Below are positions 58,295 through 64,000 of a stretch of 64,000 bases of DNA, piece after piece. Under the pieces are notes generated by a model. The model was not told where the DNA came from. It did no database searches and saw nothing but the letters and a program-made list of their open reading frames with translations. Origin of the DNA: Candidatus Siliceabacter maunaloa (GTDB taxonomy: Bacteria > Actinomycetota > Thermoleophilia > Solirubrobacterales > Solirubrobacteraceae); the NCBI GenBank assembly GCA_024330185.1, contig JANDLV010000004.1, positions 62,001 through 126,000 on the forward strand, in the 5' to 3' direction. Positions within the stretch are counted from its first letter, which is position 1. Every line of letters starts with the position of its first letter. Made by a program: the position numbers and the translations under genes.

Positions 58295-58672
58295 TCACAC
58301 TTCCTCGAGGCGTGCGCCGACTGCGCGCGCGCGAAGGAGGTCCGCGAGGTCATCCGCGTCGCTGGTCAGCACGGTGTCGCCCGGCTCGACCAGCAGGGCG
58401 AGGTGGGCGTCGACGACATCCGCGGACGCGGTCCTTGCAAGCAGCTCACCGACCCGGCGACCAGCGGCGGGATTCAGCGAGGCGGTCTCGGTCCAGGCGA
58501 GCAGGCGGGCGAGGTTGGCCTGGCGCGCACCGTCGCGCCAGACCTGCGCGACGACGGCGCTGCTGGTGCGCACCGGCAGCCCTCGGCGGCGGGTCACGAG
58601 CAGGATCGCTTGAACTCGCGGGTTGGACCGGTCGACCGCGATCAGGCCGCCCGCGTCGAGGACGAGGGCCAC
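58295..58672 (-). CDS. PIN-domain toxin (VapC-like)
   Basis: A 125-residue PIN-domain ribonuclease: 'ALVLDAGGLIAVDRSN' carries the first catalytic Asp, 'RTSSAVVAQVWRDGARQANL' is the second motif (Gln where many VapC have Glu), and 'ASADVVDAHLALL' and 'TVLTSDADDLADLL' contribute the remaining acidic residues. VapC toxins cleave RNA and are held inactive by the antitoxin. GTG 58672 follows the TGA of the antitoxin gene by one base, so the pair is co-translated. Confidence 0.85.
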   Translation of the reverse strand: MALVLDAGGLIAVDRSNPRVQAILLVTRRRGLPVRTSSAVVAQVWRDGARQANLARLLAWTETASLNPAAGRRVGELLARTASADVVDAHLALLVEPGDTVLTSDADDLADLLRARAVGARLEEV

Positions 58673-58673
58673 G

Positions 58674-58925
58674 TCAGCCGTCGCCGCGCCATCCGTCGTC
58701 CTCGATGCCCAGCGCGCGGTAGGCCCATTGGAAGTCCTCCTCGCTGGGCGGGCCGTCCTCATCCTGCCACGCTTGCAGCGCCCGCCCCAGGCCCTCGTTG
58801 CGAACCCTCGCGGCCGCAGCTTCGCTCAGCCAGCCCGAGACGCTGGTTCCAGAACGCGCTGCCTCTTGGCGGACCACCTGGCCGAGCTCCGGGTCCATGG
58901 TCACCGAGAGCCGATCGACCTTCAT
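58674..58925 (-). CDS. Ribbon-helix-helix antitoxin (VapB-like)
   Basis: An 83-residue protein. The N-terminus 'MKVDRLSVTMDPELGQVVRQ' followed by 'AARSGTSVSGWLSEAAAARV' is a ribbon-helix-helix DNA-binding domain. The acidic, Trp-containing tail (from 'WQDEDGPPSEEDFQW') is suited to wrap the PIN toxin. ATG 58925 is used; upstream in-frame starts would extend into the operator. Repression of its own promoter through the palindrome at 58942 is inferred. Confidence 0.85.
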   Translation of the reverse strand: MKVDRLSVTMDPELGQVVRQEAARSGTSVSGWLSEAAAARVRNEGLGRALQAWQDEDGPPSEEDFQWAYRALGIEDDGWRGDG

Positions 58926-58932
58926 GCCGACG

Positions 58933-58955
58933 ACCGTAGCACATACCGCGGTATG
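58933..58955 (-). promoter_or_regulatory. vapBC promoter with 14-bp palindromic operator
   Basis: CATACCGCGGTATG at 58942-58955 is a perfect 14-bp palindrome directly upstream of a minus-strand TACGGT -10 box (58933-58938), which itself lies 7 bases before the antitoxin ATG. A dimeric ribbon-helix-helix protein bound there would block polymerase. A plus-strand TAGCGT at 58983-58988 may serve fumC on the other side. Confidence 0.6.
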
Positions 58956-59022
58956 CATGGCCCGGCCGCCAACCGACGACGATAGCGTTCAGCGCCCGGA
59001 CGCGAACGAGAGGCCAGCCCCG

Positions 59023-60361: not shown

Positions 60362-60820
60362 TCAGCCGGGCTCGTCCTGGAGCTCGAGCCGCTCGAAGAA
60401 CTCGTCGAAGGCCACACCGAGGCTGCGGTGGGCCGCGTCGGGATCGGCGACCTCGTGGTCCCACAGATGAACGATGCTCTCCCCGGTGTCGCTTTCGACC
60501 GAGAGGCAGACCAGGTTGCCGAAGGGGTCGCCGGCGACCGGGAGCAGGAACGCGGGGAGATCGTGATCGGAGCCCGGGCCGGAGTAGGTCCGGCGTACGG
60601 AGACGAGGTCCTCGAGCTCCTCCACCTGCGTCGGCCCCGCGCTGAACAGCCGCTCCACCAGGACCTCGTGATCGAAGTGCGCGGGATCCAGGTACCCACC
60701 GTTGTGCTCTGCGAGGAACGCCCGGTAGGCGGCAGGGAGGCGCACGCCGAGCTCTCGCTCGGCGGCGACGATCTGCTCTTCGGAGGCCGGCGGAGCGGCC
60801 TCCTCGAAGCTCGGCGTCAC
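60362..60820 (-). CDS. SMI1/KNR4 family immunity protein
   Basis: A 152-residue SMI1/KNR4-superfamily protein: 'ASEEQIVAAERELGVRLPAA' then 'YRAFLAEHNGGYLDP' is the diagnostic N-terminal pattern, with 'LLPVAGDPFGNLVCLSVESD' and 'VHLWDHEVADPD' in the core. In polymorphic-toxin loci, SMI1 proteins bind and neutralise the adjacent nuclease toxin. The GTG start overlaps the TGA stop of the toxin gene (GTGA), a tight toxin-then-immunity arrangement. Confidence 0.92.
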   Translation of the reverse strand: MTPSFEEAAPPASEEQIVAAERELGVRLPAAYRAFLAEHNGGYLDPAHFDHEVLVERLFSAGPTQVEELEDLVSVRRTYSGPGSDHDLPAFLLPVAGDPFGNLVCLSVESDTGESIVHLWDHEVADPDAAHRSLGVAFDEFFERLELQDEPG

Positions 60821-62310
60821 GGCGTGCCGGCCTCCGGCTGCTGGCTGGGCGCCGCATTGCGTCGCAGGAACTCGGCGCCCCCGCTGTGACCGGTCTTCGA
60901 GTGGATGCTGGTAGGAACGAGCTGCATCGTCTTGCCATCCTCGACGTGGTGCCACGTGTACCCGCGCGGCTTCTTGGTCAACCCGGCCGCCCGGTTGGCC
61001 AGGGCGAAGTCGCTGGCGGAGCCGGTGAGGCCGTCGACCTCCACGGTCTTCGTCGCGTGGGGCGTGAAGTCCGGGTAGCCGGTCGGCTTAAAGCGCACGC
61101 CGGTCTCGGGGTGCCGCTTGCCGGCGAGATGACCGTTCTTGAGATTCCGGGGGGCCGGGGTGTCGCCTTCGGGGCCGCAGTGGGTGTTGTGGACGAGGGC
61201 GGGGTGGTGGCCGGCGTAGTAGGTGTGTTGGGTGGCGACGGTGAGGTTGTAGACGCGCTGGTGGCGGGGGGCCAGCACGGCCACGGAGGTGATCGCGGTG
61301 GTGTTTCCGGCGGGGTCGAGCACCCGGTCGCCGGGGCGCAGGTCCTCAGCGTCGACCCACCTGCCGCGGTCGTGGACCCAGAAGGGATGGCCGTCGGTGG
61401 CCCTCAGCGTCTGGCCGCCGGCGCGCACGCGAACCAGCGTCTTGGGGCCCTCGCCGACGATCACGTCCTGCACCGCCCGCGGGGCGACCTGGCCGCTGGT
61501 CGGATCGCCGGCCAGCACCCGGTCGCCCACCCTGACCTGGGAGATCGCGCGCCGCGAACCGTCGCCCATCACCACCGGGGTGTCCGCAGTAAACGAATTG
61601 CTCACGCAATCCCGCCGATCACCATCAGGCGCACGATCACCATCGGGCGCATCAGGACGCCCATCAGGGGCGCGCACCGGCGGGGGCGCCACATCGTCGA
61701 GCTTGCCAAGCTTGGGCAGCCCCTTGCCCCCGATCACCGTGCCCGCAGCGGTCACCAACCCCCGCCCCAGCGCCTCGTCCAACCCACCCTCCTCATAAGA
61801 CTGCACGATCGGATCCGCGAAGCTGCTGGCCACCGACTTGGTCGACTCCCACGGATGACTGACCACATACCCCGCCGTATCGGCCGTCTGGCCCCACTGC
61901 TCAGCCATCCCCGACGGATCGAACACATTCACATGACGCCCCACACCCTGGACGGTGTCCACCGCCTCCCCACCCACATCCTTGACGCCCTCCCACGCCC
62001 CCGTGAAGAAATTGCCCCCACCGCCCTCGCCATCCCCACCACCCTCCTGCGCCGGCCCAGACACCGACTCGCCACCCCCACCCGACGGCGCCGCCGCCGG
62101 CGGCGGCCCATCCCCAGCCCCCGCGCCCTCCTGGCCACCACCACCCAACGTCGCGATCGCCGCCCCCACCTTGGACACCACCACCTGACCCACCCCCGGC
62201 ACAGCCGCCAACAACACCCCCACGACCACCGCCGCCGCGACGATCACCCCCAGATACTCAACAGCCGACTGACCCCCCTCACAACGCAAACGCCTCATCG
62301 ACCCAACCAT
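60817..62310 (-). CDS. Polymorphic toxin: Flp-prepilin-like N-terminus, Hint domain, C-terminal WHH nuclease
   Basis: A 497-residue protein. ATG 62310 follows GGAAGGTG at 4-base spacing. The N-terminus 'MVGSMRRLRCEGGQSAVEYL' fits the Flp prepilin rule G/xxxxEY (cleavage after Gly13, Glu at +5, Tyr at +6) and is followed by a hydrophobic helix to about residue 40. A Gly/Pro-rich linker and a helical region (40-230) come next. A Hint (intein-like) autoprocessing domain runs from about 235 to 374: 'CVSNSFTADTPVVMGDGS', 'RATDGHPFWVHDRGRW', terminal 'AGHHPALVHNT'. The tip has 'FKPTGYPDFTPHA' and 'GYTWHHVEDGKTMQLVPTSI' with 'TGHSGG', the WHH branch of HNH/endonuclease VII nucleases. The Hint domain probably releases the nuclease. 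Domain calls are strong; the export route is inference. Confidence 0.9.
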   Translation of the reverse strand: MVGSMRRLRCEGGQSAVEYLGVIVAAAVVVGVLLAAVPGVGQVVVSKVGAAIATLGGGGQEGAGAGDGPPPAAAPSGGGGESVSGPAQEGGGDGEGGGGNFFTGAWEGVKDVGGEAVDTVQGVGRHVNVFDPSGMAEQWGQTADTAGYVVSHPWESTKSVASSFADPIVQSYEEGGLDEALGRGLVTAAGTVIGGKGLPKLGKLDDVAPPPVRAPDGRPDAPDGDRAPDGDRRDCVSNSFTADTPVVMGDGSRRAISQVRVGDRVLAGDPTSGQVAPRAVQDVIVGEGPKTLVRVRAGGQTLRATDGHPFWVHDRGRWVDAEDLRPGDRVLDPAGNTTAITSVAVLAPRHQRVYNLTVATQHTYYAGHHPALVHNTHCGPEGDTPAPRNLKNGHLAGKRHPETGVRFKPTGYPDFTPHATKTVEVDGLTGSASDFALANRAAGLTKKPRGYTWHHVEDGKTMQLVPTSIHSKTGHSGGAEFLRRNAAPSQQPEAGTP

Positions 62311-62422: not shown

Positions 62423-62857
62423 ATGCGCCCAGCCGCCCTGCGCCCCCGCATCGCCGCATGGGGTCTCGACCTGTTGATCACCCCCATCCTGCCCTTCGTG
62501 CTCTACCTCGCGATCGCCGCCCTGTTCGGCGACGACATCCCACTCGCCGTCGCCCTGCCGATCGTCGCGCTCCTCCTGGGCTTCCACCTGCTCTACGCGC
62601 CGGTCCTGCTCACCCGCATCGGCGACCACGCAGGCCAGACCATCGGCAAGCAACTCCTCGGGCTCCGCGTCACCCGCCCCGACGACCAGCCCCTGGACTT
62701 CCGCCGCGCCCTCGTGCGCGAACCGCTCGCCCGCAGCCTCCTGGCCTTCGTGCCCCTCTACCTCGTCGTCGACCTGCTCCTACCCCTCCTCACCCCGCCC
62801 CGCCGCCGAGCCATGCACGACATCATCGCCGACACCCTCGTGGTCCGCGCCGAATAG
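62423..62857 (+). CDS. RDD family membrane protein
   Basis: A 144-residue protein with three hydrophobic segments. RDD-family markers are the Arg in the first segment ('LRPRIAAWGLDLLITPILPF', with the Asp), 'GQTIGKQLLGLRVTRPDDQP' and the final 'RRRAMHDIIADTLVVR'. The function of RDD proteins is mostly unknown; some are linked to ion transport. It is divergent from the toxin gene. Complete and of normal length. Confidence 0.85.
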   Translation: MRPAALRPRIAAWGLDLLITPILPFVLYLAIAALFGDDIPLAVALPIVALLLGFHLLYAPVLLTRIGDHAGQTIGKQLLGLRVTRPDDQPLDFRRALVREPLARSLLAFVPLYLVVDLLLPLLTPPRRRAMHDIIADTLVVRAE

Positions 62858-62889: not shown

Positions 62890-63366
62890 CTACAGCGCCA
62901 CCACGAGGCCGGCGAGGAACCCGCCGTTCACGAGCGCCCGACAGGAGGGCGAGAGAGCGACCCACATCGTCGTCTGCACCAACGGCTCGATCTCGATCGC
63001 GAGCTGGCGGTGGGCGCCGCTGAAGCAGAACCGTGGCGCCACATCCTCGACGTACACCTCGGGTCGGCCGCCCACGACCCGCAGACTCCCACCGCCCACG
63101 CCACCAGGGGCGCTAAGCGCTTCCTCGCGCGCTTGCCAGCGGGTCCTCGGAACCAGGATCTCGATCCTGTTGACGATGCCAGCGGCGTCCATGTCGAAGA
63201 CCAGCAGCGACGCCACGTTCGCGCCGAACGGGAACTCGCGCCCCTCGATGCCCCGACCCTCCAGATGCAGGTCGTCCCCGTCGTGGACGGGACCCAGGGC
63301 CCCGTGGTCCGTCGGTGCCACGACGCTCACGGGGAGACGCGGAAGCGTCTCGAAGCGCTCGCCCAT
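62890..63366 (-). CDS. Hypothetical protein
   Basis: A 158-residue protein. ATG 63366 is favoured over an adjoining GTG at 63369 because GAGG lies about 6 bases upstream of the ATG. It has alternating hydrophobic beta-like strands ('VASLLVFDMDAAGIVNRIEI', 'RPEVYVEDVAPRFCFSG') and a hydrophobic C-terminus ending 'GGFLAGLVVAL'. I recognise no family. Its place between the toxin locus and another small gene would allow an orphan immunity role, but nothing in the sequence shows it. Confidence 0.6.
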   Translation of the reverse strand: MGERFETLPRLPVSVVAPTDHGALGPVHDGDDLHLEGRGIEGREFPFGANVASLLVFDMDAAGIVNRIEILVPRTRWQAREEALSAPGGVGGGSLRVVGGRPEVYVEDVAPRFCFSGAHRQLAIEIEPLVQTTMWVALSPSCRALVNGGFLAGLVVAL

Positions 63367-63425
63367 CACTGGCCTCGCTGGCGGCCCGGAGATCCTCTTA
63401 GTAGCAGCACGGACCGCCTCTGCGG

Positions 63426-64000
63426 TCAGCGTCGGGGTTGCGGCGACCAGACTGCCACCTCACCGCCCGGCAGCGAAACCAGCCGCAGGCCGTCCGGGCC
63501 GACAAGAGTCCACGCCTCGAACTGCTCTACGGCCGGCACGCGCAGCCACCGGCCATCCGCGAACCACAGCTCAAGGCGCCCGTCCTTGAACGCCAACGCC
63601 GCCTCCAGCGCAGCATGCAGCACAGACAACGCCGGGGCCAGCGCGGACGGACCATCCTCATCCTCCAAGCTCAGCGAGACGGGCTGGCCGCCATCGACCC
63701 AGCCCAGCACCTCGAAGGGCTGTTCGATCCGAACCTCGAACGACCCCGGGCCGCTGCCGATCACGAGCGTGAAGGCATGGTCGATACGACACTGCACCAC
63801 GACACAGCCGTCAAGCGGTACCAGCCACCGATCCTTCGCATCGACGAGTTCGCCCGCCGTCACTCCGGCAGGAACGCCTGCCTCGGGCGGGAGCCCCGAG
63901 ATCTCGCCTCCAAAGCGAGAACTGAGCGACTCGCTGCGGTCGCGCGTGAGCTCGACCAAGAACGGGCCACCAGACGCCTCGTCCTCAATGACCCCCAGCT
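63426..64000 (-). CDS. DUF6188-like protein, frame open at the window end (possibly 5' truncated)
   Basis: The frame from a TTG at 63959 gives 177 residues, but codons upstream of it stay open to the end of the window ('VIEDEASGGPFLVEL'), so the true start may be outside. The core 'QCRIDHAFTLVIGSGPGSFE' with 'VRIEQPFEVLG' and the ending 'LVSLPGGEVAVWSP' resemble the DUF6188 family of small actinobacterial proteins of unknown function. That match is from memory of the pattern. No catalytic motif is seen. Confidence 0.6.
   Translation of the reverse strand, partial: LGVIEDEASGGPFLVELTRDRSESLSSRFGGEISGLPPEAGVPAGVTAGELVDAKDRWLVPLDGCVVVQCRIDHAFTLVIGSGPGSFEVRIEQPFEVLGWVDGGQPVSLSLEDEDGPSALAPALSVLHAALEAALAFKDGRLELWFADGRWLRVPAVEQFEAWTLVGPDGLRLVSLPGGEVAVWSPQPRR

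Follow-up and report, generated by a model that had tools for sequence, protein, structure and literature searches.

By which route does a nuclease toxin leave the cell when its N-terminus is that of a pilus subunit? The question is raised by a gene near the end of a stretch of 64,000 nucleotides (the window) from contig JANDLV010000004.1 (C55) of assembly GCA_024330185.1 (G000), the genome of Candidatus Siliceabacter maunaloa (Actinomycetota, Solirubrobacteraceae). The gene (Table 1) is predicted to encode a Hint-type self-splicing nuclease toxin that starts with a pilus-subunit export tag and is paired with an immunity gene. The protein is probably a polymorphic toxin with a Flp-type (class III) prepilin leader as its trafficking part, for which export by the Tad route or anchoring at the surface is proposed. 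The evidence, drawn from sequence, consists of the protein architecture, immunity pairs, tad linkage, constraint on the leader motif and the match of the leader to the Flp pilin of the same genome.

The reading frame is intact in the window and specifies 497 amino acids, its ATG (62310-62308) being preceded by the ribosome-binding sequence GGAAGGTGGG. The order of the domains is class III (Flp) prepilin leader, hydrophobic helix, glycine-rich linker, pretoxin region, PT-HINT and WHH/colicin-type nuclease. The Hint domain and WHH nuclease claimed in a first-pass annotation of the DNA were both confirmed with Pfam (PT-HINT value in Table 1); the Hint region retains NSF at its start, TDGHPFWV, and VHN at its end, and the tail matches WHH (4.6e-17, residues 445-479, with the WHH residues kept) and Colicin-DNase (2.2e-13, residues 432-477). 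No Pfam family matched residues 47-238, and residues 54-225 are 67% identical to a paralogue on contig C42. None of the catalogued trafficking domains (signal peptide, two-partner secretion (TPS), type VI secretion system (T6SS), LXG/WXG and others) was found with Pfam in the window toxin, which has the Flp leader instead. A scan of other phyla with the full protein matched the Hint and WHH half only, in proteins of Bacillota and Pseudomonadota with other N-termini that lack the leader. A structure model computed without an alignment had a mean predicted local distance difference test score (pLDDT) of 38.7, with fair confidence only for the leader helix and some Hint strands; this low-confidence model places a helix at residues 16-35.

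The N-terminus reads MVGSMRRLRCEGG/QSAVEYLGVIVAAAVVVGVLLAAVPGVG, with G13 at position -1, followed by QSAVEY (Q14 at +1, E18 at +5, Y19 at +6) and about 27 hydrophobic residues. The class III (Flp) prepilin N-terminus proposed in the first pass is borne out, as Gly or Ala at -1, Glu at +5, Tyr or another aromatic residue at +6 and a hydrophobic helix define this class. A profile of the leader matched Flp pilins and other long proteins in the same genome; its E-values reach 1e-25, and NCBIfam holds no model for the leader. For a blinded profile, G-1, Q+1, E+5 and Y+6 were masked to X and 35 genomes of another family (f18) were searched; this replaced an earlier masked-motif test, which was partly circular as its loci had been preselected by the motif. 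Among the nine matches (four of them from one genome, G413, one of these four being a row of the blinded alignment), Glu was present at +5 in all nine, Gly at -1 in eight (Ala in the other) and Tyr at +6 in eight. Chance occurrence of the motif is ruled out by this result. The homologous leader-toxins, for which loss of G/xxxxEY had been named in the first pass as a sign against the idea, retain G/xxxxE[YFW], also when the motif is blinded. Over the 26 residues from G-1, 15.1 are shared between a leader and the Flp pilin of its own genome, compared with 9.9 for other Flp pilins (eight genomes), and only 4 of 40320 permutations gave a pairing as good, a likeness to which common descent within a lineage could add.

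The stop codon of the toxin gene (60819-60817) overlaps the GTG start of a SUKH-1 gene by 4 bp (GTGA at 60820-60817), and the SUKH-1 product is the candidate immunity protein of the window toxin. An orphan cassette array occupies 62.9-64.0 kb of the window and continues past it; the N-terminal part of its DUF6188 gene product is 41% identical to an immunity-like protein behind a leader protein of genome G010 (BLASTP 4e-22). A second copy of the leader DNA (140 bp, 97.9% identical) lies about 3.2 kb farther on in the contig and heads a 58-residue fragment. The stretch that separates the two leader copies contains an orphan tip with 53% identity to the tail of one leader protein of G010 and two immunity-like proteins with 41-48% identity to the neighbour of that same G010 protein. 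The repeated leader, the orphan tip and the immunity-like genes are read as the usual tail-replacement pattern of polymorphic toxins. The first-pass annotation had missed the SUKH gene, the orphan immunity genes and a tad locus past the contig end (see below); the remainder of its observation holds.

A search for further proteins with a Flp signal and a Hint or toxin part, as recommended in the first pass, was successful both in the same genome and across the phylum, with many unrelated tails. Leader profiles were run on 201 genomes from the order and 396 from the phylum. Two further leader-toxins are found in the same genome, one on contig C42 (Tox-REase-2 tail) and one on contig C70 (TSP3 repeats and an Endonuclea_NS_2 tail, with a SUKH-like neighbour gene behind it). 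Leader and body of the C42 leader-toxin (L010 4488-5791) are in different frames, and this gene may be a pseudogene or reflect a frameshift or a sequencing or assembly error. Leader-rich genomes were found in families f1, f2, f10, f18, f27, f33 and f47. The tails recognised by Pfam were Ntox24 with Hint (G184), thermolysin M4 and Abhydrolase_8 (G010), Tox-REase-5 and Abhydrolase_8 (G303), RHS (G455), calpain (G232 and G413), EndoU, Abhydrolase_8 and a DUF6782 metallopeptidase (also G413), and Hint with RNase A/CdiA as well as Abhydrolase_8 (G439); G413 has a second leader-RHS-like protein, named RHS from its sequence, 3.9 kb from TadA. One leader type occurs on 12 Pfam toxin or enzyme families, the exchangeable tail by which polymorphic toxins are recognised. 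The pretoxin part that also marks such toxins, PT-HINT, is shared by the window toxin with leader proteins from G184, G439, G430 and G455 (in a shifted frame in G455). Downstream immunity genes are likewise present, their protection being predicted: SUKH, CdiI_2 after an RNase A/CdiA tail and, as a weak match, Imm52 after Tox-REase-5. Plasmid matches to the G303 tail, mostly from Streptomyces, start after the leader, as expected of exchangeable tails. The leader-toxins form a previously uncatalogued class of toxins that probably leave the cell by pilus machinery.

Selection bias was lessened by a search that started from PT-HINT instead of the leader. In the order alone this gave nine genomes over the cut-off, which was too small a sample, and the 396 genomes were used. 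In frames of 500-900 amino acids, the size range to which the count applies, eight PT-HINT matches exceeded the cut-off, and the leader was present in four of the eight, namely the window toxin and the proteins of G439, G430 and G455; in G455 leader and Hint occupy adjacent frames. The N-terminus was read for five of the eight, and the fifth (L175) has a Sec-like start.

Tad genes and a prepilin peptidase, the absence of which was the other outcome named in the first pass as speaking against its proposal, are present and linked in the genome (TadA, RcpC/CpaB, TadE, TadZ-like, Flp and Peptidase_A24). In total there are two Peptidase_A24 genes and five T2SSE ATPases. A Tad locus on contig C65 comprises Flp, a response regulator, a histidine kinase, two TadB/C-like proteins, TadA, TadE, a TadZ-like ATPase with a TadE tail and RcpC/CpaB (3e-13), where kinase, regulator and TadB/C are named from gene order and sequence appearance and not from a profile; a Peptidase_A24 prepilin peptidase lies about 3 kb past RcpC/CpaB. 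The end of C55 carries a second Flp gene and a TadE/G-like gene (PF13400, 5.7e-8). C55 ends in the 55 bases with which C65 begins, a 55-mer that has no further copy in the genome, and the join is crossed in frame by an open reading frame with a homologue (L011 8127-8552) next to a different leader-toxin. With the contigs joined in this way, the distance from the toxin would be about 7.5 kb to the Flp gene of C65, 11.5 kb to TadA and 18.5 kb to the peptidase. One strand carries the toxin and the genes from Flp to CpaB, and the peptidase is on the opposite strand. In six other genomes, five of 17 leader-toxins or toxin-like leader proteins were located within 15 kb of a canonical TadA (0.115 would be expected, which gives a Poisson p of about 1.5e-7, an optimistic value because two of the five share one genome), and the window toxin is a sixth such case beyond the 17. 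In G010 the response-regulator gene of the tad operon and a leader-TSP3 toxin-like gene share 4 bp at the stop of the former. TadA (at least 59% identity) was found in 10 of the 11 leader-rich genomes and a prepilin peptidase in all 11.

In the mechanism proposed, the pilin helix would insert the toxin in the membrane, and a prepilin peptidase, most simply the Tad-linked Peptidase_A24, would cut after G13. The Tad (type IVc) machine would then employ the mature protein as an unusually large minor pilin, or the protein would stay on the cell surface as an anchored form. When a competitor is touched, self-cleavage of the Hint domain would free the HNH nuclease tail, which would degrade nucleic acid in the neighbour, and the SUKH protein from the overlapping gene would protect the producer. 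The prepilin-peptidase processing and Tad-like pilus or membrane route suggested in the first pass are supported by the Tad locus, the kept motif and the proximity of TadA. More tentatively, Tad pili of Gram-positive Actinomycetota could be devices for interbacterial toxin delivery, the toxins being peptidase-cut prepilins that travel as minor subunits or at the tip and are set free in neighbouring cells by Hint autoproteolysis.

Several points weigh against export through the pilus. Flp pilins have about 50-80 amino acids and no large globular domain, whereas the helix of the window toxin is followed by a linker, Hint and enzyme that together span hundreds of residues; a mature subunit of 484 residues may not fit the Tad fibre and could stay a membrane protein. 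Many leader-toxins are distant from tad genes (four of five in G413), TadA was not found in G184 (a genome 76% complete), and the join between C55 and C65 is drawn from the assembly overlap, not from reads. The model does not explain the route of the nuclease into the target cytoplasm, and cleavage, export, pilus incorporation, autoprocessing, delivery and killing are deduced from sequence rather than observed directly. The main rival, considered rather unlikely, is membrane display without pilus incorporation: the leader would be a cleavable membrane anchor only, trimmed by the peptidase, and the toxin would stand on the outer face of the membrane until released by Hint or a protease, never entering a Tad pilus. 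This is favoured by the large C-terminal domains and the many copies distant from tad loci, and lipoprotein-like genes behind several Abhydrolase_8 and calpain versions (see below) are consistent with action outside the cytoplasm. A plain anchor would, however, need neither a leader helix that tracks the Flp pilin of its own genome past the cleavage motif nor tad linkage, and both therefore weigh against it.

Sec and type VII export are common among actinobacterial polymorphic toxins, and L175, another Hint protein of the phylum, seemingly starts with an ordinary Sec signal. That the window toxin uses one of these routes, its pilin-like motif being fortuitous, is nevertheless highly improbable and was rejected: no LXG or WXG domain was matched in it at E-values up to 0.1 (Pfam), a class III leader stands in place of an ordinary signal, and the E-values of the leader profile and the invariant Glu at +5 in the blinded search argue against a fortuitous motif. 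To the extent of the missing LXG/WXG domain, the route other than type VII proposed in the first pass is upheld. Very little weight is given to the idea that the proteins are Tad-associated enzymes and not weapons, e.g. nucleases processing DNA in Flp-dependent natural transformation as known from Micrococcus luteus (PMC4322843). Nuclease tails and the association with Flp loci would suit such a role, but the tails also include RNase A, EndoU, calpain, thermolysin, lipase-like and RHS versions, and immunity genes and orphan cassettes are present.

With polymorphic toxin systems (Zhang et al. 2012, PMC3482391) the leader-toxins share the modular protein, Hint pretoxin, exchangeable tail, downstream SUKH/CdiI-type immunity gene and orphan cassettes; they differ in the trafficking module, here a Flp prepilin leader. 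Such toxins are classed by export route, and the 2012 catalogue lists these routes without a mention, in the text searched, of pilin, prepilin, Tad, Flp or pilus. The prepilin/Tad route is also absent from the open-access full text searched, which contains no description of Flp-leader toxins; subscription papers and preprints are outside this scope and an earlier description is possible. Features shared with Flp/type IVc (Tad) pilins are the class III leader G/xxxxEY, hydrophobic helix, tad linkage and prepilin peptidase in the genome. In Myxococcus, the Tad-like Kil pilus is tied to contact-dependent killing, with the toxin unidentified there (PMC8460266). Its Tip minor pilins are large and TadE/F/G-like; Tip4 kills without the type III secretion system (T3SS*) and is possibly toxic itself, and for the extra domain of KilN4 no known structural homologue was reported and no immunity genes were noted (PMC8460266, PMC12075869). 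Compared by published description, Kil and the leader-toxins have in common a Tad-like machine with contact killing and large minor pilins, whereas Kil has TadE/F/G-like Tips, a diderm host and no immunity genes noted. LXG/WXG type VII toxins of Gram-positives (PMC5555719) share the modular style, the nuclease tails and the setting of Gram-positive competition, but the proteins described here have a prepilin leader and no LXG or WXG domain. If the proposal is true, polymorphic toxins would have a further delivery route and a machinery known mainly for adhesion would have an arsenal. Toxin delivery by Tad pili is directly testable because toxin-immunity pairs, prepilin signal and tad genes lie together, also in Streptomyces-like genomes with the same architecture, and a Flp leader with a long C-terminus and an immunity gene provides a search signature for more such toxins.

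Table 1. Features of the leader-toxin locus in the window (all on the reverse strand).
Feature	Coordinates	Strand	Evidence and remarks
Leader-toxin gene, 497 aa (amino acids); Flp-type leader, pretoxin, Hint, WHH/colicin-DNase	60817..62310	-	Intact frame; ribosome-binding sequence GGAAGG 5' of ATG at 62310
Predicted class III prepilin leader peptide MVGSMRRLRCEGG, aa 1-13; expected cut G13/Q14	62272..62310	-	Sequence, alignments, blinded-profile test
Pilin-like N-terminal helix QSAVEYLGVIVAAAVVVGVLLAAVPGVGQVVVS, aa 14-46	62173..62271	-	Aligns with own-genome Flp pilins
Low-complexity linker and pretoxin region, aa 47-238	61597..62172	-	Sequence
Hint autoprocessing domain, aa 239-374	61189..61596	-	PT-HINT E=3.4e-20, aa 253-374 (Pfam)
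HNH-superfamily nuclease tail, WHH/Colicin-DNase, aa 432-479	60874..61017	-	Pfam
Candidate cognate immunity gene, SUKH-1 (SMI1_KNR4), GTG start	60362..60820	-	Pfam 4.9e-17; overlaps toxin stop
Small open reading frame, orphan cassette array	62890..63369	-	Part (~63300-63365) repeated further along contig, 93% identical
Orphan immunity-like gene with DUF6188	63426..63998	-	DUF6188 2.3e-26; full gene extends past window (L009 5927-6826)

Small lipoprotein-like genes were seen directly behind Abhydrolase_8 or calpain leader proteins (L117 5374-5895, L058 5703-6224, L128 2651-3103, L134 5023-5457, L122 3139-3486 and L126 2286-2672). Two of the encoded proteins are related, a third comparison was too short to count, and the genes are candidates for immunity proteins acting outside the cytoplasm. 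Most genomes viewed also contain a protein of 400-480 amino acids that shares the Flp leader and matches no Pfam family, often beside a Flp gene (L009 8611-9933, on C55 past the window; L055 16899-18314; L063 3209-4786; L135 16344-17783; also L069, L070, L072, L073, L123, L131, L162 and L166), and this protein may have a structural role as a large minor pilin or as the tip of the pilus. Paralogous small membrane proteins with a GAWQAAAAGAPS motif (L009 11631-11957, continuing into C65, and L011 8127-8552) lie beside Flp genes and the C70 leader-toxin and are a possible accessory factor.

A second pair of CpaB-like and TadA-like genes near the end of contig C43 (L022 7520-9405) belongs to a separate Tad-type system. 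Type IVa-like pilins (GFTLIELLVV) and the second prepilin peptidase are located on contig C31 (L023 6927-10140 and G000:C31:43012-43320), and the genome therefore has more than one type IV filament system. Within the window, a divergent RDD-family membrane protein is encoded at positions 62423-62857, and the 3' end of its gene includes a stretch with 91% DNA identity to sequence beside the C42 paralogue; because of this identity the RDD gene or fragment may travel with the toxin. A PIN-domain-like gene with a small ribbon-helix-helix-like gene upstream (58295-58958) resembles a VapBC pair, both being named from sequence without a profile.
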